A DNA stretch of 64,000 bases from Aestuariispira ectoiniformans. GTDB taxonomy: Bacteria > Pseudomonadota > Alphaproteobacteria > UBA8366 > Aestuariispiraceae. The notes beneath the pieces were generated by a model. It did no database searches. It saw only the letters and a program-made list of their open reading frames with translations, and was not told the origin of the DNA. Shown one piece after another: positions 141 to 55,701 of the stretch. The stretch spans positions 4,171,588 to 4,235,587 of the forward strand of contig NZ_CP062788.1 in NCBI RefSeq assembly GCF_025136295.1. The letters are read 5' to 3'. The position numbers and the translations under genes are program-made. How positions within the stretch are numbered: the stretch's first letter is position 1; every line of letters begins with the position of its first letter.

Positions 141-1358
141 CTACTCGTTCAATATCGGCACCAATCTCATATGGCTTTCGATGGCCGCAATGATTTCCTC
201 CGGCAATTGAACTTCCGAGTGAAAGTCAGCCCAAGTGTCCCTTATACGCACAGCCATCTCTTTTGCGGCTCTCATTGCTATTGCCCCCGGAAGTTTTGCC
301 TGATCAATGAACGTCGTGAACCGGTCAGATGACAATTCGTGAAACTGCTTCGTCCCGGCGAAATTCATTCCGAGGTCTTCCTGTCCGACATATGTCAACG
401 TAGACAGGTAGTCATACAGAGGAGCCAGCTTGGGCGTCTTCCCATCCGGGTAGATGAGCGACCAGTTCTTGAGATGCATATCCCCATTTCCGATGGCTGC
501 ATTCAAAACGATCCGTTGGACAAAATCGACAATCGCCCCTTCGTCGGTTTCAGCCCAGAGAACCCTGGCGATCATGCCGAAGTTTCCCTTCTTATACTTG
601 TCATTCGGATACACCCTGAAGACCTGGGCAAAATCTTCGATATGTATCCGTGCACCGTCTTCAGTCCGGTCGAATCTCTGAATAGCAAACACGTCACCCA
701 AGTCAGTGCGGATACCGCTCGGCAGCCCTTCGATGACATCGATGGGAACGAGATCGAAGTCCGGAACATCAAAGCCGAGACGTTTTGCAAAGGTCATCAT
801 CCAGAACTCATTCTCCGGAACGGCCTGGAATTTCTCCGAGGGAAACTTCAGTATCCAATTGCCACCTTTACCGGTTGCGGGAACCGTCAGCCCTCCGGAT
901 GCAGCACGCAGAGCCGATAACTTCATCTGCACACCGGCCAAACTGAATTTCAGGGGGCCATCGCGGGTCGCGGTTTCATCTGCGGCCAACTCGTGCTCTG
1001 GAATGCCCTCGCTGTCTTCCTTGTTCAACCGTGCGATGACCGCGCCGGGCAAATCCTCTCCAAGCGCCTTGAGCAATTGAAATTCACGGGTCGGATGAAT
1101 GCCATCCTTCTCCGCCACATAGTCTCTGAGCTTACCTTCCGGGAGCAGGTTTGAAAGAAAGGGATCAATCTTGTTTTGCCGCGCCTTCAGCTTCAGAGTG
1201 ACGCCCCCTGACGGGGTTTTGAAGCCAAGGGAGGCCGTCGGCCGGTCAGGATTTGATATATAGCCTTCATCCAGCGAAAAGACAGAACGGTCCCCGCCCA
1301 GGTCAACGACCTGGCCGACACGAACTCCGTGTAGAATGATGTCCAATACCTCGGCCAC
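141..1358 (-). CDS. hipA: HipA-family Ser/Thr kinase toxin
   Basis: This is a 405-residue HipA-type kinase, the toxin of a type II toxin-antitoxin pair; known relatives phosphorylate a translation factor such as glutamyl-tRNA synthetase. Visible family motifs are FSLAGVQMK (residues 138-146, the HipA signature), ILKF with a likely ATP-binding Lys at 171, the catalytic segment NGDMHLKN (291-298) and the metal-binding-type DYLST (316-320). All appear intact, so the protein looks active. Residues 1-100 form the usual N-terminal subdomain. The gene starts 3 nt after the hipB stop, so the two are co-transcribed. It sits next to an integrase on a probable mobile element, which fits a stabilising addiction role. 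The cellular target is not predictable from sequence. Confidence 0.88.
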   Translation of the reverse strand: MAEVLDIILHGVRVGQVVDLGGDRSVFSLDEGYISNPDRPTASLGFKTPSGGVTLKLKARQNKIDPFLSNLLPEGKLRDYVAEKDGIHPTREFQLLKALGEDLPGAVIARLNKEDSEGIPEHELAADETATRDGPLKFSLAGVQMKLSALRAASGGLTVPATGKGGNWILKFPSEKFQAVPENEFWMMTFAKRLGFDVPDFDLVPIDVIEGLPSGIRTDLGDVFAIQRFDRTEDGARIHIEDFAQVFRVYPNDKYKKGNFGMIARVLWAETDEGAIVDFVQRIVLNAAIGNGDMHLKNWSLIYPDGKTPKLAPLYDYLSTLTYVGQEDLGMNFAGTKQFHELSSDRFTTFIDQAKLPGAIAMRAAKEMAVRIRDTWADFHSEVQLPEEIIAAIESHMRLVPILNE

Positions 1359-1361
1359 CTA

Positions 1362-1658
1362 TCAGTCCTCGTCTTCCAGGGCGTAAAGCGGTTTTTCTTC
1401 GCCCTCGGATACCGTACTCCCTTCAAGCAGGGCTTCTATCGCCGGCACCAATTCCCTTGGGGCGAACACCATCTCAAGACCAAGGGCACGAAGCACCGCT
1501 ACCGTCGTTGCCGTGCGCGCGTTGGCCCCGCGTTCCAAGCTCGATATCTGAGCCTGGGTAACCCCCGCTTTCTGAGCAAGAGCATCTTGCGAAAGCCCGA
1601 GGGCCCGCCGTCTTCTTTTCAGGGTATCGCCTATGCTCTCTAGTTGAGTAAGTTTCAT
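1362..1658 (-). CDS. hipB: HipB-like XRE-family antitoxin and repressor
   Basis: This 98-residue protein has an XRE/Cro helix-turn-helix at about residues 10-55 (GDTLKRRRRALGLSQDALAQ, then GVTQAQISSLERG). It precedes hipA in the same direction with 3 nt between the genes, the standard antitoxin-first order. HipB proteins dimerise, bind their own promoter and neutralise HipA. The C-terminal 35 residues are acidic (ending in LYALEDED) and may be the flexible, protease-sensitive part. An imperfect TATC-N10-GATA dyad 25 bp upstream is a candidate autoregulatory operator. Confidence 0.85.
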   Translation of the reverse strand: MKLTQLESIGDTLKRRRRALGLSQDALAQKAGVTQAQISSLERGANARTATTVAVLRALGLEMVFAPRELVPAIEALLEGSTVSEGEEKPLYALEDED

Positions 1659-9051: not shown

Positions 9052-10424
9052 ACCACCTAACCAGCGAAGTGCAGGCATTCGAGGCCCGCGCGACTGATAC
9101 TGACCTCGACGATCTTCGCACACGGCTGGCCGCAGCGCGGTTGCCGGAGGCCGAGACGGTCTGCCGCGCCGCCCCCGGCGCCGGCCGATGGGAGCAGGGC
9201 GTTCCCCTTGCCGACCTCATTGATGTCGTGAATTACTGGCGCACCGAGTATGACTGGCGGTCGTTCGAGGCACGCCTCAACAAGATCGGGCAGTTCCGCA
9301 CAACCATTGACGGTCTGGGAATCCATTTTCTGCACCGCCGGTCCACACGCCAGGACGCCATCCCGCTGATCATGACCCACGGCTGGCCGGGAAGCATTGC
9401 TGAATTCGTCCATAACATAGACGAACTGGCAGACCCGAAGGATCGGAACGCCCCGGCCTTCCACGTCGTGACACCATCACTGCCAGGCTTTGGCTACAGC
9501 GACAGACCGACGGCCACAGGGTGGGGAACCGAAAAGATTGCGGCCGCCTGGGTGGACCTGATGGGAAGGCTCGGCTACGGAAAGTTCGCCGCGCACGGCG
9601 GCGACTGGGGCGGTGTGATCACCGCGATTCTCGGCAGCAGGTTTCCGGAGCAGGTTCTCGGACTCCACACAACACTCGCACAGGCACCGCCGGGGCTGAC
9701 AGCCGACGGCCTGACGGCGATCGAACGCGAATGGACCGAGGAGACACGCGACTTCTGGCGTCACCGCGCCGCCTATGCGAAACAGCAGGCGACCAGGCCG
9801 CAGACGATCGGCTATTCTCTTGTCGATTCACCAGTCGGGCTTCTTGCCTGGATTCTGGACAAATTTTCTGAATGGACAGATACCGAAGACAGCCCGTTCG
9901 AAACGATTTCCAGAGATCGTATTCTTGACAACGTCACCTTGTACTGGCTGACGCAAACAGGCGCATCGGCAGCGCGCATCTATTACGAAAGTCACAATTC
10001 GCTCGACCCCGAGCTTCGGATCGATGTCCCGTCCGCAATCAGCGTCTATCCCCGCGACATCGAGAAGTGCCCACGTGCCTGGGCACAGGAGCGGTACCGG
10101 CAAATCGTCCGCTGGAGGTCACCTGAAACGGGAGGACATTTTCCGTCGCTGGAGGTTCCCGAGCATTTCGTCAGGGATCTGCAGGAAGGCCTTGCAGCAG
10201 TGCTGGCCGCTAGCGCGGCAGTGGGTCATAACATACGAAACCGCAGGCGGTGTGAAGGCAATGCCTGTAGAGCACACCCCTCACACCGACATCCCCCAAT
10301 AGTCCCAGAAAGCGGGACATGGCCCTGTTTCAGCGAATGGTCCAAGTCAGATACAAAGCCTGCATCTCGCACGTATCCAAGGCGCCAATTTGATCACCAT
10401 GCGCCAGATGACTACAGCAGGTGA
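9048..10424 (+). CDS. Epoxide hydrolase (EHN/alpha-beta hydrolase family), extended C-terminus
   Basis: The ATG at 9048 follows CAGGAGCG and gives a 458-residue frame. Residues 10-110 are the epoxide hydrolase N-terminal region. HGWPGS (111-116) is the oxyanion motif, HGGDWGG carries the nucleophile D186, and GGHFPSLEVPE carries the catalytic H364. These enzymes open epoxides to diols. Family members normally end within about 20 residues of that His-Phe-Pro motif. Here the frame runs about 70 residues further with unusual composition and overlaps the convergent cysG-like gene by 95 bp. A TAG in another frame at 10211-10213 would give a normal-length protein, so a late frameshift is likely. 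Confidence 0.8.
   Translation: MNHLTSEVQAFEARATDTDLDDLRTRLAAARLPEAETVCRAAPGAGRWEQGVPLADLIDVVNYWRTEYDWRSFEARLNKIGQFRTTIDGLGIHFLHRRSTRQDAIPLIMTHGWPGSIAEFVHNIDELADPKDRNAPAFHVVTPSLPGFGYSDRPTATGWGTEKIAAAWVDLMGRLGYGKFAAHGGDWGGVITAILGSRFPEQVLGLHTTLAQAPPGLTADGLTAIEREWTEETRDFWRHRAAYAKQQATRPQTIGYSLVDSPVGLLAWILDKFSEWTDTEDSPFETISRDRILDNVTLYWLTQTGASAARIYYESHNSLDPELRIDVPSAISVYPRDIEKCPRAWAQERYRQIVRWRSPETGGHFPSLEVPEHFVRDLQEGLAAVLAASAAVGHNIRNRRRCEGNACRAHPSHRHPPIVPESGTWPCFSEWSKSDTKPASRTYPRRQFDHHAPDDYSR
10249..10318. other. Structured region at the 3' end of the epoxide hydrolase frame
   Basis: GGTGTGA (10249-10255) pairs with TCACACC (10281-10287) and encloses AGGC-AAT-GCCT (10256-10266). A second stem GTCCC/GGGAC spans 10302-10318. 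Neither is followed by a clean T run. Such structures between convergent genes suggest that this stretch is really intergenic, which supports an earlier true end for the epoxide hydrolase. Confidence 0.35.
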
Positions 10425-11298
10425 GCTCTTGCAGCGTGGCATCACGACGCGCAAAGCCCAATATTTCCTTTGGTATGCGAGGATCGAAATAGATAATTTC
10501 TGCCGTTTCAATTGCCCGGATCACACCATAGGGCAATCGCATCGGGTCCGTTTCGCAGATATCAATTCTGCGCGGGCCACTCGAAGGGTCTTTTTCCCGA
10601 TCCACAAAGTCGCGCATTGCCGCCAAAACCACCTCACGTGGCGTATCGGAGCTTTCAGGACGAGCCCCCCTCCCCCAATCGGTGAAGAAATATGTCCAGA
10701 AGCGATTACGTATCCGCCCATCCGGCAGCAGACTGGCGACCATTCCCCGGGCGCTGCGCGCCATGGCCGCCAGCGGCCCGACAGACGTGGGTATCGCCGC
10801 CTCCAGACGTTGTCTCAGAATGCGGGCCAAAGCCGGTGCAGAACCACCGGTGCAAATAGCCACCATGACCGGCGCCCGGTCCAGGATCGCTGGCGTGATA
10901 AAGTCGCATCTGTCGGTCTGGTCCACCACATTGACCGGAATATTGCGGGCCTTCGCCGCGGCCTCTACCTCCTGCGTGACGAAATCATCGCCGCCGCCAT
11001 CAAAAACCATCACGGCCCCATCCAACATTCCCGGCGTGAAGGGCCTGCCCTCATGCGTGATAAGACCGGTATCCCGCATTTGGCGGATATCGGCACAAAG
11101 GTTGGACGCGATCACCGTGATCCTGGCCTCGGTCCTGCATAACAGGCGCAGTTTACCGGCTGCTGCCTCGCCGCCGCCAATCACAACGACCTTGCGATTA
11201 GCCACTTTCACAAAAGCCGGAAAATAGGGGAATTTCTCTTCCGCCACCGCCTCGTCCGGCTTCAGCGTCTTATTCTGCAGCGCGCGGGACAGTCTCAT
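10330..11298 (-). CDS. CysG-like precorrin-2 dehydrogenase/ferrochelatase with degenerate SUMT tail
   Basis: The ATG at 11298 is preceded by AAGGAG and overlaps the nasA stop by 29 bp; an upstream GTG at 11334 is less likely. The 322-residue product has a CysG N-terminal module (Rossmann segment KVVVIGGGEAAAGKLRLL, then NVVDQTDRCDFITPAI) that oxidises precorrin-2 and inserts iron to make siroheme. About 95 C-terminal residues resemble only the start of uroporphyrinogen methyltransferase (IRAIETAEIIYFDPRIPKEI), and the expected glycine motif GAGPGDP is replaced by ICETDPM. Methyltransferase activity should therefore come from another gene. Siroheme is the NirB cofactor, which explains its place as last gene of the operon. 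Confidence 0.8.
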   Translation of the reverse strand: MRLSRALQNKTLKPDEAVAEEKFPYFPAFVKVANRKVVVIGGGEAAAGKLRLLCRTEARITVIASNLCADIRQMRDTGLITHEGRPFTPGMLDGAVMVFDGGGDDFVTQEVEAAAKARNIPVNVVDQTDRCDFITPAILDRAPVMVAICTGGSAPALARILRQRLEAAIPTSVGPLAAMARSARGMVASLLPDGRIRNRFWTYFFTDWGRGARPESSDTPREVVLAAMRDFVDREKDPSSGPRRIDICETDPMRLPYGVIRAIETAEIIYFDPRIPKEILGFARRDATLQELTCCSHLAHGDQIGALDTCEMQALYLTWTIR

Positions 11299-13936
11299 CA
11301 ACAATCTCCTTGAGTTCGGACAGGCAGGAACCACAACCGGTCCCTGCCTGTAATAGCCGCCCCAATTCCTCTACACTGATTGCCTGCCGGCCCTGAATTG
11401 CGTCGGTAATCGCCGCCAGCCCAACCGAATAACAGGAACAGACCAGTCGATCATTGACCCCTATGCCGGATGCTGTACGTCCGACAAGCAGACCTGCGCG
11501 AGCCCCCTCATCCAAAGCCCCTCCACCAAAGAGAGAGGCGATCCAATTCCGGTCGAGGACCGGACGATCCGGCGCGGCAAACAGGGCTGACGCAACCTGA
11601 TCGTCCACCAACCTTGCCAGACGGGTCACGCCACGCTGACGGTCGGAATATTCGATGATCTGCCCTTCCTCATGCGGCCCCAGAAGCGAACGGAAAATAT
11701 GGGGCACGTCGCCGGCAATCTCATAGATCAGGCAGCCCGGCGCAGCCGCCTTTACCCAATATGGCAGGCCGGACAGGTCAATGTCCTGGCGGGAAAAGAG
11801 CAGGCCCTGCCACATAGGCTGATAAGGACCGATCCGGACGGGGAATAACTTACTTTCCGGCTGACCTGAATGCGGGTCGGTTTCCGGCGGAACAAGACGG
11901 CCGATGCCGCCGTCGGAAGAGAAACTGTCACTCCAATGCATGGGCATGAAGATCGCCCCTGCCGCCTGCGCCTCTGTCACGGAAACACGCATCAGCAAGT
12001 TTCCATACTGGCTTTCAACACGCGCCAAACCGCCATCAACCAGGCCGTAATGGGCGGCATCCTTGGGATGAATCTCCAGCAGGGGTTCCGGCCGATGGGC
12101 CGCCAGACGCGCCACCGGTCCGGTCCGGGTCATCGTATGCCATTGATCCCGGTATCGCCCGGTATTGGCAATCAGCGGATAGTCACCATCCGCCAGGGCG
12201 CGAGGCTCTTTCTGGCGTACAGCCAACATGTTTGCACGACCGTTGTTGGTCGTAAAACAACCATCCGTATAGAGACGTCGCACGTCTGCCGGTCGCGACT
12301 TGTCGCGGGAGGCGGGCCACTGAAAAGGTTCCATGCTGTCATAGGCACCTTTACGGGTCTTGCTCCATTGGCCGATATCAAAGGCACGAATCCCATCATT
12401 CTCAAATTCCGACAGGGCTGCGAATTCTGCAAAAATCTCTGCCGGATCACGATAGGCAAAGGCCTTCTCAAAACCGAGAACCTGGGCGACCTGAGACATG
12501 ATCCACCAGTCGGGCTTGGCCGAGCCTGGGGCCTTACGGAATGCACGTTGTCGGGAAATACGGCGTTCCGAATTGGTGACTGTGCCGGATTTCTCCGACC
12601 AGGCCGCCGCCGGCAAGACAATATCAGCATAGCGCAGGGTGTCATTTTCCCTCACCACATCGGAGGCAATAACCAGCGGACAGATTTCCAACGCATCCCG
12701 AACCCGGCTGGTATCCGGCAGGCTGACCGCAGGGTTGGTGCCCATCACCCAAAGCGCCTTGATCTCGCCCCGCTCAACGGCACGGAAGAGTTCAACTGCC
12801 TTATAGCCCTCACCCTGACGCAGATTAGGCGCCTTCCAGAAACGACGCAGCCGGTCCACATCCATCGGGTCGTTGGGGTCCATATGAGCGGCCAATTGGT
12901 TCGCGAGCCCGCCCACTTCACGCCCGCCCATGGCGTTTGGCTGCCCCGTGACCGAAAATGGACCTGAGCCCGGCTTGCCCACCCTGCCCGTCGCCAAATG
13001 ACAGTTGAGGATGGCGTTGACCTTGTCACTTCCCTGGCTGGACTGATTCACCCCTTGAGAAAAAACGGTGACCGTCTTGTCGCATTCAGCAAACCAACGA
13101 TAAAGGGTCCTGAGGTCTTTGGCTTCGAGACCACAAGTCATAGCCGTTTGTTCAACCGTCGGGCAGTCCTCCCGTGCAGAGGCAACGGTGGCGGCATAGC
13201 CGCCCACATGGCGGGTCAGGTAATTCCAGTCCGCCAAACCGTTATCGTCGACCCAGGTCAGCAACCCGTTGAACAGGGCTACATCGCTGCCGGGCCTGAT
13301 CGCCAGGTGAAGGTCAGCGATATCGCAACTTGCGGTGCGGCGCGGATCTATCACGACCACCTTCGTCCCCCGAGCAGCCTTAGCGGCGCGCAGCCTTTGA
13401 TACAAGACCGGGTGACACCAGGCCAGGTTGGAGCCTGCCAGGATGACCAGATCCGCCAGTTCCAGGTCTTCATAGCAGCCGGGCACAACATCCGCCCCGA
13501 AAGCCCGTTTGTGGCCCACCACAGTAGAGGCCATGCAGAGCCGGGAATTCGTATCGATATGGGGTGAGCCGATGAAGCCCTTGATCAGCTTGTTGGCAAC
13601 ATAATAGTCCTCGGTCAACAACTGGCCGGAAACGTAGAAGGCCACCGATTTCGGGCCATGACGATCAATGGTTTCACGCAACCGTCCCGCCGTTTCCGCA
13701 ATGGCACGATCCCAATCACAGTCCACACCGTCGACATTGGGGAACAGCAAGCGGAAATCACGCTCTGCCTCGGCATCCAGGCTGTCAATCAGGGCGGCCC
13801 CCTTTGAACAGAGCCGCCCTTTGTTGGCGGGGTGATCCGGGTCACCGCCAACGGCCCAGCCTTCCTGCGTGGCCGAAATGATTACCCCGCAGCCAACGCC
13901 GCAATAGGGACATGTTGTTTTCACCTCATCCTGCAT
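11270..13936 (-). CDS. nasA: Assimilatory nitrate reductase catalytic subunit
   Basis: This 888-residue molybdopterin oxidoreductase reduces nitrate to nitrite in the cytoplasm. The N-terminal [4Fe-4S] motif has Cys at 9, 12, 16 and 43 (CPYCGVGC, GRLCSKG). The bis-MGD domains follow, and a C-terminal BFD-like [2Fe-2S] domain reads LVCSCYSVG to GTGCGSC, typical of NasA rather than respiratory enzymes. There is no Tat signal, which agrees with a cytoplasmic assimilatory role. The start overlaps the nirD stop, and the gene belongs to the leftward nirB-nirD-nasA-cysG operon. No separate NasB/NasG electron-transfer gene is adjacent. Confidence 0.93.
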   Translation of the reverse strand: MQDEVKTTCPYCGVGCGVIISATQEGWAVGGDPDHPANKGRLCSKGAALIDSLDAEAERDFRLLFPNVDGVDCDWDRAIAETAGRLRETIDRHGPKSVAFYVSGQLLTEDYYVANKLIKGFIGSPHIDTNSRLCMASTVVGHKRAFGADVVPGCYEDLELADLVILAGSNLAWCHPVLYQRLRAAKAARGTKVVVIDPRRTASCDIADLHLAIRPGSDVALFNGLLTWVDDNGLADWNYLTRHVGGYAATVASAREDCPTVEQTAMTCGLEAKDLRTLYRWFAECDKTVTVFSQGVNQSSQGSDKVNAILNCHLATGRVGKPGSGPFSVTGQPNAMGGREVGGLANQLAAHMDPNDPMDVDRLRRFWKAPNLRQGEGYKAVELFRAVERGEIKALWVMGTNPAVSLPDTSRVRDALEICPLVIASDVVRENDTLRYADIVLPAAAWSEKSGTVTNSERRISRQRAFRKAPGSAKPDWWIMSQVAQVLGFEKAFAYRDPAEIFAEFAALSEFENDGIRAFDIGQWSKTRKGAYDSMEPFQWPASRDKSRPADVRRLYTDGCFTTNNGRANMLAVRQKEPRALADGDYPLIANTGRYRDQWHTMTRTGPVARLAAHRPEPLLEIHPKDAAHYGLVDGGLARVESQYGNLLMRVSVTEAQAAGAIFMPMHWSDSFSSDGGIGRLVPPETDPHSGQPESKLFPVRIGPYQPMWQGLLFSRQDIDLSGLPYWVKAAAPGCLIYEIAGDVPHIFRSLLGPHEEGQIIEYSDRQRGVTRLARLVDDQVASALFAAPDRPVLDRNWIASLFGGGALDEGARAGLLVGRTASGIGVNDRLVCSCYSVGLAAITDAIQGRQAISVEELGRLLQAGTGCGSCLSELKEIVDETVPRAAE

Positions 13937-14276
13937 TGATCGCTCCCATCTGCGACGATGTCAGACCAATACGCACCTTGCCGTCAACGATCCGGCTTTC
14001 CACCTTGCGGGCACAGCCATCCTCGGCGCCCTGCGCCTCACCGGTTTCCAGCGAGAAGACCATGTTATGCAGCGGACAGGTCACAAAATGACCATGCACA
14101 ATCCCCTGTGCCAGTGGCCCATCCTTATGCGGGCAGCGGTCAACCAGCGCAAAAACCTCACCATCCACCGTTCTGAAAACAGCAATTCGGTCGGTTTCGG
14201 TCTGATAGGTACGCGCGCCCTGAAGCGGAATATTGTCCACCGGCCCGAGGTCTACCCAGTTCAGTAATTCGGTCAT
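13926..14276 (-). CDS. nirD: Nitrite reductase small subunit (Rieske)
   Basis: This 116-residue Rieske-type protein has the two iron-sulfur ligand boxes CPHKDGPL and CPLHNMVF separated by about 16 residues. It is the partner of NirB in NAD(P)H-dependent assimilatory nitrite reduction to ammonium. It lies 5 nt after nirB and overlaps the nasA start by 11 bp. Length and placement are typical. Confidence 0.93.
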   Translation of the reverse strand: MTELLNWVDLGPVDNIPLQGARTYQTETDRIAVFRTVDGEVFALVDRCPHKDGPLAQGIVHGHFVTCPLHNMVFSLETGEAQGAEDGCARKVESRIVDGKVRIGLTSSQMGAINAG

Positions 14277-14281
14277 CGGCC

Positions 14282-16762
14282 TTACTCCGCGGCTTGCAGG
14301 AAGGAGAATTCGTGTGCATCGACGCTCTCTTTGACACGTTCAGCCCAGGGATCACGCTGGCTCGTCTCCTGGCTTTTCAGAAAACGCACATAGAGCGCCG
14401 CACGATTGTCGGCGTCGTCGACCACCCGCTCCTGCACGTGTTTCAGACCAACCCTTTCAATCCAGGGCGCGGTACGCTCCAGATATCGCGCTTCTTCCCG
14501 ATAAAGCTGGATGAAGGCGCAGCAATATTCCTTCACCTCTTCGCGTGTCTTGACCTTGCACAGCAGTTCGGTGGCCCGCACATGCATGCCGCCATTGCCA
14601 CCCACATGCAGATCCCAACCGCCCTCGGTTGCGATCACACCAAAATCCTTGATGGTTGCCTCCGCACAGTTCCTTGGGCAGCCCGAAACCGCCATTTTGA
14701 ACTTATGGGGCATCCAGGACCCCCAGGTCATCTGTTCCAGCTCCACCCCCATGCTCATGGACATCTGGGTTCCAAAGCGACACCATTCCTGCCCGACACA
14801 GGTTTTGACCGTGCGCAGCGACTTGCCATAGGCATGACCGGAAACCATGCCTGCCGCATTCAGATCCGCCCATACCGCAGGCAGGTCTTCCTTCTTTACG
14901 CCCAACAGGTCGATCCGCTGGCCGCCCGTGACTTTCATGGTGGGGATATCGAATTTATCCGCCACATCGGCGAGGGCGCGCAGCTCTTTTGGATTAGTCA
15001 GCCCGCCCCACATGCGCGGCACCACGGAATAGGTGCCGTCCTTTTGGATATTGGCGTGGACGCGTTCGTTGATGAAGCGGGACGCCCCATGGTCCACATA
15101 GTCACCCGGCCAGGCCGCAAGCAGATAGTAGTTCAACGCCGGTCGGCAGCTATGGCAGCCATCCGCGGTTTTCCATTCCAGCGCCTGCATCACAGCCGCC
15201 ATGGACTTCAGGCCCTGGGCCTTGATCAGTCGACGCACCGTGTCGTGGTCGTGATCGGTGCAAGGGCAGATCGGCTTTGCCGCATCCGCCTCGAACTCAC
15301 CGCCCAACGTAACCGCCAGAAGGTTTTCCACCAGGCCGCTGCAGGACCCGCAGGAGGCTGACGCCTTGGTATGGGCACGAACATCATCCAGCGAGGACAG
15401 CCCCTGTTCGTTTATGGCGGCAACAATCGTGCCTTTGCAAATGCCGTTGCAGCCACAGATTTCCGCATCGTCGGGAAGGGCGGCAACGGCATCCCTAGGG
15501 TTTCCGACAGACCCTCCCGCGAAAGCCTGACCAAAGGCCAGCGTATCGCGCAACTCACCAACGTCAGTGGCGTCCTTGAGCATCTGGAAATACCAGGCCC
15601 CGTCGGCAGTATCGCCATAAAGCACCGCCCCCTTTATGCGCCCCTCCTCCAGTACGATCCGCTTGTAGATACCGCGGCCTGCATCGCGAAAGACGATTTC
15701 CTCCACCTCATCACCGCCGGAGAAATCCCCCGCCGAAAAGACATCCACACCTGTCACTTTCAGCTTGGTGGAGGTAACTGAACCCGGATAGCCGTCGCTT
15801 TCCAGCTCTGCCAGATGATCGGCACAGCTTTTCGCCATTTCAAACAGCGGCGCAACCAGACCGTAGCACTGACCGCGATGTTGAACGCATTCGCCGACCG
15901 CCTTGACGGCCGGATCGCTGGTGGTCATGAAATCATCCACCACGATTCCGCGTTCAACGCTTAGACCCGCACGGTCGGCCAGCCATCCATTGGGTCGAAT
16001 TCCAACCGCCATGACCACAAGACTGGCGTCCAGGTGGCGCCCATCCTTCAGCCAGACACCGGTTACATGTTCGTCACCGGTGATCTCCCGGGTATCTGCC
16101 TCGGTGATCACCTCAATCCCGCGACGTCCCAATTCCTGCTGCAGCAGATAACCGGCAGAGGCATCCAACTGCCTCTCCATGACGTGGCCTGCCAGATGCA
16201 GGACCGTTACCTTCATACCGCGTGCCTGAAGACCAACCGCGGCTTCCAACCCCAGTAGCCCGCCGCCGATCACAACAGCCCTGCCGCCGCTTTCAGCGGC
16301 TTTCAACATCACATCCACGTCATCCACATCGCGGAAGGTAACCACCCCCGGCAGATCCTTGCCTGCAATCGGGATCACGATGGGCATGGAACCGGTGGCC
16401 AGCAGCAATCGATCATAGGAGACAGCAAGCCCACTTTCCGCAGTCACGGTTTTATTCGCGCGGTCTATATCGACAACCGGGTCTCCGCTCTGCAACGTAA
16501 TCCCGTTTTCTTCATACCAATCCTGTCCGTTGATCACGATGTCATCGAAGTTCTTTTCCCCTGACAGCAAGGGAGACAGCATGATCCGGTTGTAATTAAC
16601 ACGCGGTTCCGCGCCAAAAACGGTGATGTCGTATTTGCCGGGTGCGCGGGTCAAAAGTTCTTCGACCGTGCGCATACCCGCCATGCCGTTTCCGATTACC
16701 ACCAATCGTGGACGGCGACCTTGTAGCAATGCAGGGTCCTTGCTCGCAGGGATTTTTGTCAT
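14282..16762 (-). CDS. nirB: NAD(P)H nitrite reductase large subunit
   Basis: This 826-residue siroheme enzyme reduces nitrite to ammonium. An N-terminal FAD/NAD module (VIGNGMAGMR, VVIGGGLLGLEAA) is followed by two BFD-like cysteine clusters (CGCNGICKG to CGSC; CPCTD to CHSC). The nitrite/sulfite reductase part carries the siroheme-[4Fe-4S] ligands CVGQEWC and CPRNC. It is the first gene of the operon and starts at ATG after AAGGAG. A roughly 180-nt leader with a paired hexaloop structure and a terminator precedes it, so expression should depend on NasT antitermination when nitrate is present. Confidence 0.94.
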   Translation of the reverse strand: MTKIPASKDPALLQGRRPRLVVIGNGMAGMRTVEELLTRAPGKYDITVFGAEPRVNYNRIMLSPLLSGEKNFDDIVINGQDWYEENGITLQSGDPVVDIDRANKTVTAESGLAVSYDRLLLATGSMPIVIPIAGKDLPGVVTFRDVDDVDVMLKAAESGGRAVVIGGGLLGLEAAVGLQARGMKVTVLHLAGHVMERQLDASAGYLLQQELGRRGIEVITEADTREITGDEHVTGVWLKDGRHLDASLVVMAVGIRPNGWLADRAGLSVERGIVVDDFMTTSDPAVKAVGECVQHRGQCYGLVAPLFEMAKSCADHLAELESDGYPGSVTSTKLKVTGVDVFSAGDFSGGDEVEEIVFRDAGRGIYKRIVLEEGRIKGAVLYGDTADGAWYFQMLKDATDVGELRDTLAFGQAFAGGSVGNPRDAVAALPDDAEICGCNGICKGTIVAAINEQGLSSLDDVRAHTKASASCGSCSGLVENLLAVTLGGEFEADAAKPICPCTDHDHDTVRRLIKAQGLKSMAAVMQALEWKTADGCHSCRPALNYYLLAAWPGDYVDHGASRFINERVHANIQKDGTYSVVPRMWGGLTNPKELRALADVADKFDIPTMKVTGGQRIDLLGVKKEDLPAVWADLNAAGMVSGHAYGKSLRTVKTCVGQEWCRFGTQMSMSMGVELEQMTWGSWMPHKFKMAVSGCPRNCAEATIKDFGVIATEGGWDLHVGGNGGMHVRATELLCKVKTREEVKEYCCAFIQLYREEARYLERTAPWIERVGLKHVQERVVDDADNRAALYVRFLKSQETSQRDPWAERVKESVDAHEFSFLQAAE

Positions 16763-16800
16763 TGTCCTGTGGCTCCTTCTCGCATCTTGCGAAATTGCAC

Positions 16801-16855
16801 AAAAAAACGCCCGATGCCGGCCCCCTTCCCTTGGAAGAGATCAAGCAACGGACGT
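16801..16855 (-). terminator. Attenuator terminator in the nirB leader
   Basis: On the minus strand ACGTCCG (16849-16855) pairs with CGGGCGT (16807-16813), directly followed by T7 (16801-16807). An internal CTTCC/GGAAG hairpin fills the loop. The 5' arm shares GTCCG with hexaloop hairpin P2, so the two folds exclude each other. This is the expected switch for nitrate-dependent antitermination ahead of nirB. Confidence 0.7.
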
Positions 16856-16884
16856 CGTTATCCGGAGAATCCTGCATTGGATTC
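16801..16884 (-). promoter_or_regulatory. NasT/ANTAR-target leader of nirB: paired hexaloop hairpins
   Basis: Read on the minus strand, P1 is GAATCC-[AATGCA]-GGATTC (16867-16884), a perfect 6-bp stem with a six-base loop. After two bases comes P2, CGGAT-[AACGAC]-GTCCG (16849-16864), with a wobble closing pair. Both loops have A at position 1 and G at position 4, the recognition pattern of ANTAR proteins. The 3' strand of P2 also forms the 5' arm of a terminator (16801-16855). Binding of NasT to P1-P2 would therefore block termination. The nasT gene is 2 kb away. The structure is seen directly; the mechanism follows known ANTAR systems. Confidence 0.85.
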
Positions 16885-16895
16885 AGTTATATAGC

Positions 16896-16920
16896 GGTCT
16901 GGCGTCAGACCAGTCTGGTC
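16896..16920. promoter_or_regulatory. Overlapping palindromes upstream of the nirB leader hairpins
   Basis: GGTCTG-GCGT-CAGACC (16896-16911) and GACCAG-T-CTGGTC (16908-16920) are perfect inverted repeats sharing their middle arm. They lie between the sigma-54-like promoter and hairpin P1, inside the predicted leader RNA. They could be a protein operator or part of the folded leader. They do not match the FNR or NtrC consensus. Confidence 0.4.
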
Positions 16921-16950
16921 GGCATCTTTGCCGGTACCTGGTTCTTACGA

Positions 16951-16966
16951 TACAAGATACATGCCA
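16951..16966 (-). promoter_or_regulatory. Sigma-54-like promoter for nirB-nirD-nasA-cysG
   Basis: The minus strand reads TGGCATGTATCTTGTA. It has the -24 GG and ten bases to the -12 dinucleotide, but that dinucleotide is GT instead of GC. Other consensus positions (TGGCA, TTG) match. The predicted start is near 16940, giving a leader of about 178 nt that includes both hexaloop hairpins. Sigma-54/NtrC control is common for nas genes. No clear NtrC box was found. Confidence 0.45.
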
Positions 16967-17218
16967 AAGAGAAATTTCGACTAAAGAACAAAATAAGACA
17001 CTGAAAATAAATGATTATATTTCTAGCGCGAAATTGATGATATCGGCTCACAATAGATAATTGCATAAAAATTACACACAATAAAATCATCACGATTAAA
17101 AAATAGGCATGTCTTGCAAACCTTGCATGATGCGCCACGTCTACCGTCGCAACCGCACATATGAAAATCTATTTCGAAACAATAGATTAAACACACTTAT
17201 GCTGCGACGCGACAAAAC

Positions 17219-17234
17219 TGGCCTATAGATTGCT
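17219..17234 (+). promoter_or_regulatory. Sigma-54 promoter for narK
   Basis: TGGCCTATAGATTGCT contains TGGC and TTGCT with the exact ten-base separation between the invariant GG and GC. The predicted transcription start is near 17245, five bases before hairpin P1 of the narK leader. That close fit between promoter and RNA element supports both assignments. Confidence 0.6.
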
Positions 17235-17249
17235 ACAGAAAGAAAGTGA

Positions 17250-17287
17250 GCCGCAATGATGCGGTGTCCTCCTAAAGGCGGGAGGAC
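17250..17287 (+). promoter_or_regulatory. NasT/ANTAR-target leader of narK: paired hexaloop hairpins
   Basis: P1 is CCGC-[AATGAT]-GCGG (17251-17264, extendable by one G.T pair). P2 is GTCCTCCT-[AAAGGC]-GGGAGGAC (17266-17287), an 8-bp stem with a wobble closing pair. Both loops are six bases with A1 and G4. The GGAC of P2 can instead pair within GGACGA/TCGTCC (17284-17302), an alternative hairpin, but no U tract follows it. The exact termination signal of this leader is therefore unclear. Between here and narK (17303-17464) are further stems, GGGCCAC/GTGGCCC and GGTCG/CGACC, and no gene. Confidence 0.78.
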
Positions 17288-17464
17288 GACAGTTCTTCGT
17301 CCAATGGCGGGCGACCAACTTTCGGACCGGGTGCAGGCGCATAAACGCCGGGCAGAACGGGCCGGGATGAGATCGGGCCACCGTTGGAATCAGTAGATGT
17401 GACCTGCGTGGCCCTGGGCTTAACCCGTCGGTCGTTAGACGACCCAAACGAAGGGCTACTTGTT

Positions 17465-18823
17465 ATGGAAATCAGAAACAAGGCAACACGCATCACTCTA
17501 TTCAGCCTGAAGTCGGTGCAGATGCGCACTTTTCACCTGACATGGCTGGCATTCTTTCTTTGTTTTTTCGGCTGGTTCGGCATCGCACCGCTCATGCCTC
17601 TGGTGCGGGACGATCTGGGGCTGAGCAAGGCTGAAATCGGCAACACCATCATCGCATCGGTGGCGATCACGGTGCTGGTCCGCCTATTAATCGGGCCTCT
17701 TTGCGACAAGATCGGGCCCCGCAAAACCTATACAGGCCTGTTGATCTTCGGCGCACTGCCCGTGATGATGATCGGGCTGGCGGATACTTATGAGACCTTC
17801 CTGCTGGCACGGTTGGCAATCGGCTCCATCGGCGCGTCCTTCGTTATCACGCAGTATCACACGTCCATGATGTTCGCGCCCAATGTGGTCGGCACCGCCA
17901 ATGCAACGACCGCCGGCTGGGGCAACCTCGGCGGCGGCGTCACCCAGATGGCCATGCCCGCGATCCTTGCGATCATTCTGGGTCTTGGCGCAAGCGAGGT
18001 CATGGGCTGGCGTCTGGCAATAATTGCCCCCGGGGCGATCATGCTGGTGGTGGCCGCCCTGTATTGGATTTTCACCACTGACTGCCCGGACGGCAATTAC
18101 CGGCAGATGCGCGAAAGCGGACAGTTGCGCCCGGAAGACGACCACAGCGGCGCAGCGAAAGGCTTTCTCACCGCCATCGGCGATGCGCGGGTCTGGGCGC
18201 TATTCATTGTCTACGCCGCCTGTTTTGGCGTGGAATTGACCATCAATAATATTGCTGCGATCTATTTCTTCGACCGCTTCGAACTGGACCTGCAGACAGC
18301 GGGCCTCATCGCCGGCCTCTTCGGATTAATGAATATCTTCGCCCGCACGTTGGGCGGGGTTTTCTCTGATCGTTTTGCTGCCAAGGGCGGCCTGTCCGGC
18401 CGCGTCCGCTTCCTGTTCCTGGCACTTTTTGTCGAAGGAGTGGCCCTGATCGGTTTCTCCATGATGGACGCACTGGTCATTGCTGTTGCGGTGATGGTGA
18501 TCTTCTCGCTTTTCGTCCAGATGTCTGAAGGCGCCACCTTCGGGATCGTCCCCTTCATTAACCGAAAGGCTCTGGGTGCCGTTGCCGGGATTGTCGGCGC
18601 GGGCGGCAATGCCGGGGCGGTCGCCGCCGGTTTCCTCTTCAAATCGGAAGCACTGAGCTATCAGGACGGTCTTTTCTATCTCGGCGTCGCCGTTGTGATC
18701 TGCTCCTTTGCGGCGCTGGCGGTTCGTTTCTCGCCGGAAACCATCGCCCAGGAAAAGGCACGCTTCGAACAGGCAATGCTGGAACGCAGCGCACAAACCG
18801 CCCCGGCAATGGGTGGCGACTGA
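17465..18823 (+). CDS. narK: Nitrate/nitrite transporter, MFS NarK family
   Basis: This inner-membrane protein of about 452 residues has 12 predicted membrane segments. The NarK-family signatures are the nitrate motif around GWGNLGGGVTQ, and LLIGPLCDKIGPRKTYTGLL for the MFS loop 2-3. It brings nitrate in for NasA and can export nitrite. The ATG at 17465 is preferred; an in-frame ATG at 17384 would place coding sequence over leader RNA structure and adds a non-MFS head. No NrtABC-type ABC importer is present, so this is the locus transporter. Confidence 0.88.
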   Translation: MEIRNKATRITLFSLKSVQMRTFHLTWLAFFLCFFGWFGIAPLMPLVRDDLGLSKAEIGNTIIASVAITVLVRLLIGPLCDKIGPRKTYTGLLIFGALPVMMIGLADTYETFLLARLAIGSIGASFVITQYHTSMMFAPNVVGTANATTAGWGNLGGGVTQMAMPAILAIILGLGASEVMGWRLAIIAPGAIMLVVAALYWIFTTDCPDGNYRQMRESGQLRPEDDHSGAAKGFLTAIGDARVWALFIVYAACFGVELTINNIAAIYFFDRFELDLQTAGLIAGLFGLMNIFARTLGGVFSDRFAAKGGLSGRVRFLFLALFVEGVALIGFSMMDALVIAVAVMVIFSLFVQMSEGATFGIVPFINRKALGAVAGIVGAGGNAGAVAAGFLFKSEALSYQDGLFYLGVAVVICSFAALAVRFSPETIAQEKARFEQAMLERSAQTAPAMGGD

Positions 18824-18922: not shown

Positions 18923-19510
18923 ATGAAAGCAGAAGAATTCAGTATTCTGATTATTGACGAAGACCCGGACCGTGCCGCCATCGTGGAGCGCGGTCTGGTC
19001 GAGGCAGGCTATGCCCGCGTCAGCCGCATCGGCACCTCTTTCAATCTGGTAGACAGGGTGCAGGCCCTGGCCCCTGACGTCATCATCATCGACCTTGAAA
19101 ACCCTGATCGCGACACACTGGAGCAAATGCTGCAGGTCTCCCGCGCCATCGCCCGTCCAATCGCCATGTTTGTTGACCAAAGCGACAACACAATGATCCG
19201 CGCCGCAGTACAGGCAGGCGTCAGCGCCTATGTCGTAGACGGTCTGCGCCAGGACCGGATTAAGCCGATCGTGGAAATGGCAATCTCCCGATTTGACGCC
19301 TTCGACCAACTGCGCCGCGAACGCGATGACGCCCAGGCAAAATTGCAGGACCGCAAAATCATCGAACGCGCCAAGGGGCTTCTCATGCGGGAAAAGGGGC
19401 TTACAGAAGACGACGCCTACGCCCTGCTGAGAAAAAACGCCATGCAGCAAAACCGCAAGATCGCCGACATCGCGCAAAGCGTCATTACCGCTTTTGAACT
19501 GGAGTTTTAA
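18923..19510 (+). CDS. nasT: NasT, ANTAR-domain RNA-binding antiterminator
   Basis: This 195-residue protein has an N-terminal receiver-like domain (ILIIDEDPDRAAI, VIIIDLENPDRD) and a C-terminal ANTAR domain at about 125-186 (IIERAKGLLMREKGLTEDDAYALLRKNAM). The position of the usual receiver Lys reads VVDG, so phosphorylation control is doubtful, as in other NasT/AmiR proteins. NasT binds paired hexaloop RNA and prevents termination. Its targets are visible at 16801-16884 and 17250-17287. The nasS gene follows after 2 nt, and NasS holds NasT inactive without nitrate. Confidence 0.93.
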   Translation: MKAEEFSILIIDEDPDRAAIVERGLVEAGYARVSRIGTSFNLVDRVQALAPDVIIIDLENPDRDTLEQMLQVSRAIARPIAMFVDQSDNTMIRAAVQAGVSAYVVDGLRQDRIKPIVEMAISRFDAFDQLRRERDDAQAKLQDRKIIERAKGLLMREKGLTEDDAYALLRKNAMQQNRKIADIAQSVITAFELEF

Positions 19511-19512
19511 GA

Positions 19513-20598
19513 ATGCCCGGCCGTCAGATTCATCTTGGTTACGTCCCCCTTGTTGATTGCGCAATACCGGTGGTCGCCCGGGAGCTTGGCTTTGCCGAGG
19601 CAGAAGGCCTGGACCTGATCCTGGGACGCGAACTTTCCTGGGCATCCATCCGCGACAAGCTGGCCGTAGGCCTCTATGACGCGGCCCATTTATTGGCCGG
19701 TATTCCGCTCGCCGCCCGGTTGGGATTGGGCGGCATGCCTCAACAGAACCTGATCGTGCCCATGGCCCTTGGCAGGGGCGGCAATGCGATCACGGTCAGT
19801 ACACGCCTATATCAAAGGATGCTGGAGGCCGCACCGGAGATCATGGCTGGTCCACGCGGCAAGACCGCGAAGGCGTTAAAGAAAGTAATCGAACTGGATC
19901 AGGCCGCTGGACGCCCGCTCCTGTCCTTCGCAACCGTATTCCCCTTTTCCAGCCACAATTATGAATTGCGCTATTGGCTTGCAGAGGGAGAAATCGACCC
20001 GGACCAGGACGTGAATATCGGTATCATTGCGCCACCCCGCATGTTCGACAGCCTGCGCAACGGCTGGATCGACGGCTATTGCGTGGGGGAACCCTGGAAC
20101 CTGCGCGCGGTCGATCGCGGCGACGGTGTTATCGTCGCCCTCAAAGAGGACATACACCCTGACAGCCCGGAAAAGGTCCTGGGCGTGCGGGAAGAATGGG
20201 CGAATAGCAACCGGGAGGCCCTGCTGGCACTAGTCCGCGCCTTAACCAGGGCCGCAGAATGGGCAGACAAGCTGGAAAACCGCAGTGAACTGGCACGCTT
20301 GCTCAGCGACGAAAATTATGTGGGCGCCCCGTACGAAATCCTTCATGCGTCACTGGCTGGCAGGCCAGTTCTGAAACCCGGAAGTCCACCTATGGATTTC
20401 CCGGAGCGCCATGTCTTTTTCCATCAGAATGCAACAATCCCGTCCTGCGAACAGGCAGCCTGGCTGACCAGCCAGATGCAGCGCTGGGACCAGGCCCCAC
20501 CGGATCTCGATATGACCGACACCATCCGGCAAGTCTATCGACCGGATATCTATCAGGACGCCTCAACCAAGCGGCACCAAATCAAGTCCATCACTTGA
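19513..20598 (+). CDS. nasS: NasS, cytoplasmic nitrate/nitrite sensor
   Basis: This 361-residue protein is related to the NrtA substrate-binding proteins but lacks a signal peptide, the hallmark of NasS. Segments such as LGYVPLVDCAIPVVARELGF, LPFSSHN-type PFSSHNYELRYWL and DGYCVGEPWN line the nitrate site in relatives. NasS binds NasT and releases it on binding nitrate or nitrite. Gene order nasT-nasS matches Paracoccus. The 3' end overlaps the convergent PfkB gene by 36 bp. Confidence 0.92.
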   Translation: MPGRQIHLGYVPLVDCAIPVVARELGFAEAEGLDLILGRELSWASIRDKLAVGLYDAAHLLAGIPLAARLGLGGMPQQNLIVPMALGRGGNAITVSTRLYQRMLEAAPEIMAGPRGKTAKALKKVIELDQAAGRPLLSFATVFPFSSHNYELRYWLAEGEIDPDQDVNIGIIAPPRMFDSLRNGWIDGYCVGEPWNLRAVDRGDGVIVALKEDIHPDSPEKVLGVREEWANSNREALLALVRALTRAAEWADKLENRSELARLLSDENYVGAPYEILHASLAGRPVLKPGSPPMDFPERHVFFHQNATIPSCEQAAWLTSQMQRWDQAPPDLDMTDTIRQVYRPDIYQDASTKRHQIKSIT

Positions 20599-55235: not shown

Positions 55236-55345
55236 CCCTACACTCCCGCAAAACGCGAATGCCCCACCACATTGCAACGTTTTCCTCTGCGTCAACGGAA
55301 CTTGTTGCGGCGGCTTAAAAAGCTTGATACATGCAAGGCAACGGT

Positions 55346-55530
55346 GACCCTGCGTCCGATCGTGACGTGGGGCTTAAAAGGGAACACGGTGAGGCGTACC
55401 CAACAGGGACCGAATCCGTGGCTGCCCCCGCAACTGTAACCGGAGTGCATCCCCTCAAAGCCACTGAGCGAACTGCTTGGGAAGGCGGGATGAGACAACC
55501 TCCGCGAGCCAGGAGACCTGCCGTTGTCCT
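55346..55530 (+). ncRNA. Cobalamin riboswitch
   Basis: The conserved blocks appear in order: GGGAACACGGTGAGGCG, GGCTGCCCCCGCAACTGTAA, GCCACTG, GGGAAGGCGGGATGA, and the B12 box GCCAGGAGACCTGCC at 55508-55522. Adenosylcobalamin binding would lower expression of the downstream metal importer. About 170 nt separate the aptamer from the TTG start at 55702. This stretch contains a TGTGATT/AATCACA stem and no obvious gene. Confidence 0.95.
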
Positions 55531-55701
55531 GTGATTGCCCCGAAAGAGGAAATCACATGTTTCGTCCGGACGCCGGGGTGAGCGTCTGCGTCGCGGAAGA
55601 CAGCAGGCCAGCCCTATCGTTTTCCAAGCCGCCATGTCCCCCGCGTCTCCTTTAGTCACGCCCGATAAACGGGTCGTATTTGATATATTGGGAGACACGA
55701 A

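Follow-up and report, generated by a model that had tools for sequence, protein, structure and literature searches.

A predicted NasT-controlled antitermination leader with three ANTAR-type hexaloops ahead of nirB in Aestuariispira ectoiniformans

The closest described relatives of the leader analysed here are known to us from excerpts of the published accounts, and the statements in this paragraph extend as far as those excerpts. A dimer of EutV grips one hexaloop at a time, and among the roles assigned to its residues in RNA contact, G at loop position 4 (G4) is contacted but A at position 1 (A1) is not; it has been proposed that the first hairpin (P1) recruits the protein and the second (P2) antiterminates (PMC8934654). 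Lengthening the P1–P2 linker by 20 nt abolished antitermination by EutV, and the EutX RNA is noted to have a further, single hexaloop (PMC8934654). The P1–P2 linkers of the Enterococcus faecalis eut leaders measure 5–12 nt, and cutting that of eutP to 3 hurt induction (PMC3369931); for actinobacterial ANTAR targets, linkers of 2–25 nt have been accepted. SELEX with NasR revealed a preference for a C:G closing pair (PMC7496416). In Paracoccus, nitrate frees NasT from NasS (PMC3795266), and in Pseudomonas NasT binds NalA, the leader of nirBD, and permits nirBD transcription (PMC12830290). On that account, a NasT antiterminator ahead of nirB is an already known kind of element (PMC12830290).

We examined a 64-kb stretch of the A. 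ectoiniformans genome, hereafter the window, in which two divergent leaders occupy the nirB–narK intergenic region (Table 1). The minus strand carries nirB followed by the nirD-like, nasA-like and cysG-like genes, which we infer to form one operon, and the plus strand carries narK, nasT and nasS consecutively. The nasA-like ORF also matched the Fdh-alpha and NasC models under their cut-offs, the probable start of narK was read by eye as the ATG at 17465, and the name nasS was assigned from its position beside nasT. A REC-ANTAR protein and an NMT1-like sensor are thus encoded together, as is typical of NasS–NasT, and the nirB leader sits ahead of genes for nitrate/nitrite assimilation, as is typical of NasS–NasT leaders. 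The original prediction had placed nasT–nasS 2 kb from the leader, in agreement with the starts of nasT (18923, 2.0 kb away) and nasS (19513). A sigma-54 gene is present in the genome. The best 19 matches to NasT were 81–86% identical, 18 of them in Thalassospira and one in a Rhodospirillales MAG, and by these protein matches the source genome appears close to Thalassospira. Elsewhere in the window, a cobalamin riboswitch (RF00174) was found at 55325–55539 (+) with 132.3 bits.

Table 1. Features of the nirB–narK region (positions in the window)
Feature	Position	Strand	Basis
cysG-like, siroheme synthase N-terminal	10330..11334	-	TIGR01470, 183.6 bits, above cut-off
nasA-like, assimilatory nitrate reductase-like molybdoenzyme	11270..13936	-	Molybdopterin oxidoreductase and BFD domains
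nirD-like small ORF between nirB and nasA (approximate)	13937..14276	-	reading by eye, without family search
nirB, nitrite reductase large subunit	14282..16762	-	TIGR02374, 950.8 bits, above cut-off
Intrinsic terminator, stem-loop and T7	16801..16856	-	predicted -28.0 kcal/mol; outer pairs conserved
P2 hexaloop hairpin CGGAT-AACGAC-GTCCG (antiterminator form)	16849..16864	-	fold and alignment
P1 hexaloop hairpin GAATCC-AATGCA-GGATTC	16867..16884	-	fold and alignment of relatives
Hairpin between P0 and P1, loop not of ANTAR type	16899..16913	-	fold
P0, third hexaloop hairpin CGGC-AAAGAT-GCCG	16920..16933	-	covariation in 23 aligned leaders
Sigma-54-like -24/-12 element TTGGCATGTATCTTGTA, -12 GC replaced by GT	16951..16967	-	pattern match
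Sigma-54-like -24/-12 element CTGGCCTATAGATTGCT before narK	17218..17234	+	sequence; similar element in Thalassospira alignment
narK leader, first hairpin CCGC-AATGAT-GCGG	17251..17264	+	fold; hexaloop not kept in relatives
narK leader, hexaloop a GTCCTCCT-AAAGGC-GGGAGGAC	17266..17287	+	fold and alignment
narK leader, hexaloop b TCGTCC-AATGGC-GGGCGA	17297..17314	+	AAYGGC loop in 31/31 narK leaders
Hairpin just 5' of the narK ribosome-binding site	17430..17444	+	fold
narK-type nitrate/nitrite transporter	17384..18823	+	TIGR00886, 312.0 bits, barely above cut-off (311.7)
nasT, response regulator with ANTAR domain	18923..19510	+	PF03861, 74.4 bits; PF00072, 40.5 bits
nasS, NMT1-like nitrate/nitrite sensor	19513..20598	+	PF13379, 242.1 bits

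The two adjacent hairpins with A1/G4 loops, AATGCA and AACGAC, that had been proposed for the nirB leader proved exact on the minus strand, as did the GTCCG common to the second hairpin and the T7 terminator. The 5' arm of the terminator, GACGTCCG, consists of the 3' arm of P2 together with the last three bases of the P2 loop, and P1 and P2 are separated by 2 nt. The unconstrained leader folds into the terminator form at -38.3 kcal/mol and the fold with P2 enforced reaches -29.1, a cost of about 9, so P2 would need help to win; this calculated balance suits a switch whose default is to stop. Compared with 200 dinucleotide shuffles, the stretch 16770–16910 has the better fold in 198 cases (z -2.72). 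Scanning both strands of the window sequence alone for paired A1/G4 hexaloops (stems jointly of at least 10 bp, linker 0–8) gave three matches, all of them between nirB and narK: the nirB leader and two overlapping matches in the divergent narK leader. A packaged terminator scan of 16700–17600, which permits loops of 3–8 bases only, listed none. Sigma-54 promoters are marked by a -24/-12 consensus, and a pattern made from it was matched 5' of P2 in 31 of 35 leaders (the window and 34 relatives' loci), the others being L011, where the sequence is Ns, L025, L030 and L035.

Relatives were sought through NasT. An early search gave matches in 40 of 59 genomes, mostly weak ones to the receiver domain, and seven, our own genome included, were below 1e-25. 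The loci of the other six and of one weaker match (L042–L048, 3.2–3.6 kb each) contained no P2 pattern, and the scan for dual hexaloops matched L044, where a T-run follows, and L046, where the match is probably due to chance. Among the 38 loci fetched by NasT similarity, a P2-type hairpin stands at the corresponding place in 34; a leader of this type was not found in the fetched stretches of L037–L040, in which NasT is at most 58% identical. Downstream of L027 and L028 a nirB match was missing, probably owing to the end of the contig. Two alignments, one of 28 leaders and one of 23, were selected manually from 35 so as to reduce redundancy. In the set of 28, position 4 of the P2 loop is always G and position 1 is A in 27 and otherwise G, while the P1 loop has G at position 4 in 27 and A at position 1 in 25, otherwise G; L033 is without a canonical P1. 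The A1/G4 loops are therefore kept in orthologous leaders; their absence there had been named as an outcome that would refute the original prediction, which thus survives this check.

Mutually exclusive folds had also been proposed. Position 5 of the P2 loop complements its partner in the 3' arm of the terminator in 28 of 28 aligned leaders (A-U in 16, G-C in 12), and across four sets, comprising 89 leaders, the pair is kept in 81 of the 82 that could be scored (26 A-U, 55 G-C; the exception is A-C in L088). The remaining seven are without a terminator arm of the form searched for, and the count is not fully independent since part of the set was chosen with a model that contains these pairs; all 11 loci found with Rfam's own model for P11 have G-C. 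As the loop base of P2 complements the terminator arm, the two folds exclude each other. A model (R1) built on the segment from P1 to the terminator, with P0 not included, recognised the nirB leader as the sole strong match in its own genome (81.4 bits; next 13.7 bits, E 3.4), in a scan that scored 150 of 2070 first-look candidates and is blind to leaders without this terminator, such as that of narK.

The two hairpins of the original prediction are real, but its description as a "dual-hexaloop" switch with the "full logic" of an antiterminator was incomplete, for a third hexaloop hairpin, P0, is about as conserved. ANTAR targets are usually drawn with two hexaloops and not more, although the excerpted accounts do not state it as a rule, and P0 extends the motif: the nirB leader carries three hexaloops, and is triple, not dual. 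In 23 aligned leaders the P0 loop has G at position 4 in all, and A (21) or G (2) at position 1, while the remaining positions vary. The helix is paired in 88.8% of cells, six of its seven pairs have changed on both sides, and RNAalifold recovers it unaided. Its covariation of 0.471 compares with 0.210 in shuffles (reached by 0 of 500) and at most 0.199 when slid, in shuffles that do not keep relatedness and with 12 of the 23 rows being the window and Thalassospira-type relatives. The closing pair is C-G in 22 of 23 leaders, which agrees with the C:G preference given in the excerpted NasR SELEX work (PMC7496416). Inverted repeats are a usual form of DNA site, and P0 follows closely on the sigma-54-like element; it could be supposed that P0, perhaps with nearby palindromes, is a DNA site for a protein acting near the promoter, such as NtrC, and not an RNA element. 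We regard this as very improbable, as the spacer of a DNA dyad would have no need of a strand-specific A1/G4 pattern, and arms that change while pairing is kept fit RNA pairing better than an invariant DNA motif.

The specificity of the hexaloops was assessed by counting hairpins with A or G at loop position 1 and G at position 4 (R1/G4) in the 125 nt upstream of P2, with one stem mismatch allowed. Any qualifying hairpin in this interval counts, so that in L033 the second is not P1, and L011, with Ns upstream, was left out here and from the pair scoring. At least two such hexaloops occur in all 34 NasT-linked leaders (14 of 14 representatives below 70% identity; shuffled mean 0.86, maximum 4; mean 1.5 in the comparison of loop classes below). 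A scan of the class, in which 23 of 385 genomes matched and P2 was placed by hand, gave at least two in 14 of 20 leaders (13 of 19 representatives; shuffled 0.88, maximum 4). Left out ahead of the counting were L076, L078 and L084, which duplicate L031, L034 and L033, and L094, L095 and L097, which are plain terminators. From the scan of the phylum (43 match rows, 30 with loci and 13 without), 24 leaders of other classes were counted; our own locus, L088, which had entered an earlier count, L102 and L103, which belong to the same class, and L117 and L125, in which a P2-type hairpin was not seen, were set aside. At least two upstream hexaloops were present in 6 of these 24 (shuffled 0.39, maximum 4), some of which (L112, L120) are probably chance hairpins. 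Under a stricter rule demanding unbroken stems of at least four pairs, 29 of 34 NasT-linked and 10 of 20 class-scan leaders still qualified (39 of 54; shuffled 1.2, maximum 6).

Other loop classes served as controls. Among the 34 NasT-linked leaders, at least two hairpins of class R1H4 were present in one against 5.4 in shuffles, of class Y1G4 in none against 1.5, and of class Y1H4 (C or T at position 1, non-G at position 4) in 11 against 4.4 (maximum 9). For the 20 class-scan leaders the corresponding values were 5 against 3.9 (R1H4), 5 against 3.9 (Y1H4) and 1 against 0.9 (Y1G4), and for the 24 of other classes 0 against 2.7, 3 against 3.1 and 0 against 0.4. Judged by these controls, the excess belongs to R1/G4 loops in particular, the one exception being the smaller Y1H4 excess in the NasT-linked set. 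These counts bear on a reading in which NasT uses a dual-hexaloop antiterminator but not P0, a hairpin that would do no more than shape or stabilise the transcript near its 5' end. The canonical motif does have two hairpins, 18 of the 24 other-class leaders are without a second upstream hexaloop, and in the window A1 of P0 can pair with U6 to close a tetraloop (T occupies position 6 in 8 of the 23 P0 loops). A plain hairpin, however, would not keep a six-base loop with G4 in 23 of 23 and A1 in 21 of 23 while the rest varies, and the R1/G4 excess is far beyond that of any other loop class, so that we consider an idle P0 unlikely, if still worth bearing in mind. Downstream of the class-scan leaders we recognised by eye nirB, genes for nitrate-transporter binding proteins and a porin-like gene. 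In L098 and L099, a NasT-type leader with terminator stands, by eye, ahead of a porin/outer-membrane-like gene, which suggests control of outer-membrane uptake by NasT there.

Residues 8–188 of NasT align with the structures 6wsh and 6ww6, labelled 'Response regulator', which we take to be EutV. With an offset of 2 between the NasT and EutV numbering, derived here, all five contact residue types fit: NasT has R, K, Y and M at the positions of EutV R142, K143, Y164 and M172, and a conservative R at that of K147. The conserved loops, the covariation between terminator and P2 loop and the kept EutV-type contact residues uphold the earlier reading as a NasT-type antiterminator. The genome does encode a second ANTAR protein (match at G000:C1:2300922, 32 bits, over the cut-off), and the leader might in principle be read by this AmiR-like protein instead of NasT. 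Its neighbours, however, resemble by eye a substrate-binding protein and ABC permeases and not nitrate genes, and nasT is linked to such leaders in relatives, albeit in loci that were fetched by NasT; we hold this alternative to be extremely improbable. The second ANTAR gene itself lies at 835–1629 (+) of L130 (G000:C1, about 2300334–2301128) and looks by eye to be part of an AmiC–AmiR-like pair.

Based on these comparisons, the nirB leader (about 16762–16940, minus strand) is very probably a transcription antiterminator under NasT control that carries three ANTAR hexaloops. As a prediction, NasT-dependent antitermination of nirB–nirD–nasA–cysG is well supported by the sequence evidence, from which we also infer NasT binding, a response to nitrate and the use of sigma-54 at this leader. 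We propose that a sigma-54 promoter would start the leader transcript. Without nitrate, NasS would hold NasT, the RNA would form the terminator and transcription would stop before nirB. With nitrate, freed NasT would dock on the nascent hairpins in the order P0, P1, P2; the loop and 3' arm of a P2 held by NasT would then be barred from the terminator, and polymerase would read through nirB–nirD–nasA–cysG. P0 would serve as an added recruiter of NasT ahead of P1 and P2, presumably as an extra recruitment hairpin, and might load NasT as dimers in series or as an oligomer that NasT forms once freed. A distance of about 51 nt separates the loops of P0 and P1, and the hairpin that lies between them has a loop whose size and sequence differ by eye among relatives. 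Since 20 additional nt abolished EutV action, P0 may not work by a EutV-type hand-over; given this distance, it may instead raise the local concentration of NasT, bind an oligomer or be drawn near by the intervening hairpin. The P1–P2 linker of 2 nt is shorter than the 5–12 nt of E. faecalis eut and at the lower edge of the actinobacterial 2–25, as far as the excerpted reports go.

The divergent narK leader also carries hexaloops. In 31 aligned narK leaders, hexaloop a has by eye G at position 4 in all, and position 1 is taken by A in 19 of them and by G in the other 12; G1 and G4 are kept in L022–L029, L032, L033, L036 and L009. By analogy, G1 in place of A1 would be in line with EutV contacting G4 and not A1. 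The consensus fold of the narK leader retains only a, b and a three-pair helix, and the arms of the hairpin just 5' of the ribosome-binding site co-vary by eye in several Thalassospira rows. In the window, no run of four T was found from hexaloop a to the narK start. Since the narK leader has no T-run terminator, NasT would have to act there otherwise, through Rho, translation or as a decoy, and as narK, nasT and nasS are consecutive, feedback on the regulator is possible. Two further candidates in this leader were rejected: a small ORF beginning with an ATG in hexaloop b was discarded, since AACGGC, which contains no ATG, stands at this place in many relatives, and a long-range pairing of hexaloop b with a conserved downstream GGCCGCC appeared by eye partial in many rows and was not clean in the window.

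We compared the region with Rfam. A search of 16700–17500 gave no match at E ≤ 10, P11 (RF00625) and narK RNA (RF03032) included, and neither of these two families had a match in the own genome at E ≤ 0.001. P11, titled a Pseudomonas small RNA, matched in 15 of 299 genomes, 11 over the cut-off, and these 11 loci (L131–L141) lie by eye ahead of nirB-like ORFs. Eight of the 11 have two R1/G4 hexaloops upstream of GGAC-AAAGGC-GTCC (shuffled 0.11, maximum 2). The nirB-like ORFs downstream and the three hexaloops make it probable that P11 represents the NalA leader and not a free-standing small RNA. Compared with the nirB leader here, P0, P1 and P2 lie closer together in P11, which is without the separate hairpin between P0 and P1.

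That Rfam types P11 as 'Gene', and that leader transcripts ending at the terminator would build up in the form of a small RNA, fits a reading of the nirB leader as a constitutive attenuator or as the 3' end of a separate small RNA, with no control by NasT. Such a reading gives no reason for the conserved A1/G4 loops, for the bases that P2 shares with the terminator or for the linkage of nasT–nasS, and the excerpted review has NasT binding NalA and permitting nirBD transcription (PMC12830290); it therefore seems to us hardly credible beside control by NasT. Two NasT-type leaders scored above the cut-off of the narK RNA model, at 58.3 and 55.1 bits; in L108 at 1544–1611 (-) and L114 at 1479–1545 (+), the model spans a sigma-54-like promoter and an ANTAR-type dual hexaloop. 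Like the leaders here, RF03032 begins with a sigma-54-like element, after which come an A1/G4 hexaloop and sequence for another one; the Rfam model pairs the first hairpin only and leaves the second unpaired. In 12 of 20 RF03032 loci, looked at by eye, we saw three hexaloops in one (L157), two within the transcript in seven and one in four. A match to Atu_C3 (RF02498) in L080 was dismissed as chance, being under the gathering score (34 of 100 bits) and having a loop that is not A1/G4.

The triple-hexaloop form was not found in searches of an incomplete collection of open-access papers. We lean somewhat towards a wider picture in which NasT-type leaders before nirB would generally have three hexaloops, P0 would load NasT before P1 and P2 emerge, P11 and narK RNA would belong to the same ANTAR-target family, and the narK leader would offer NasT a second site, with feedback on the regulator genes. 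If so, the terminator-less narK leader would feed back on nasT–nasS by another mechanism. Two Rfam families, neither labelled as ANTAR targets in the search output, would be linked to NasT by these comparisons. For an ANTAR dimer that can hold one hexaloop at a time, the excerpted EutV work proposes that the recruitment hairpin is handed over to the antitermination hairpin (PMC8934654), and natural three-hairpin leaders, in which the distance of P0 differs by lineage, make this model testable. A wider rule for ANTAR-target searches is suggested, with A or G at position 1, G at position 4 and three hairpins allowed.

Set beside the known systems, again within the excerpts of their published accounts, the nirB leader resembles NalA in its putative start from a sigma-54 promoter (with NtrC in the case of NalA), in lying ahead of nirB and in having a hairpin that would block elongation unless NasT binds (PMC12830290). 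For the NasS–NasT systems of Paracoccus denitrificans and Bradyrhizobium diazoefficiens, binding of NasT to the nasA leader RNA and the need of a leader hairpin for expression are described, and NasT-type hairpins have been predicted before nirA, coxS, narK and bjgb; these are described as hairpins HI and HII or as a 'NasT-interaction hairpin', and not as three hexaloops (PMC3795266, PMC5424462, PMC6759348). With nasF of Klebsiella oxytoca the leader shares A1/G4 loops closed by C:G and would share nitrate-responsive ANTAR antitermination of nitrate assimilation, but NasR is a one-component NIT-ANTAR protein that acts on a two-hairpin motif (PMC7496416). The EutV targets of the E. faecalis eut genes are likewise A1/G4 hexaloops, the second overlapping the terminator, and are read by a dimeric ANTAR protein (PMC3369931, PMC8934654). 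EutV is controlled by phosphorylation, whereas NasT here would be held by NasS, and the eut leaders have two hairpins joined by a linker of the length given above, whereas the nirB leader has a third hexaloop (PMC3369931, PMC8934654).
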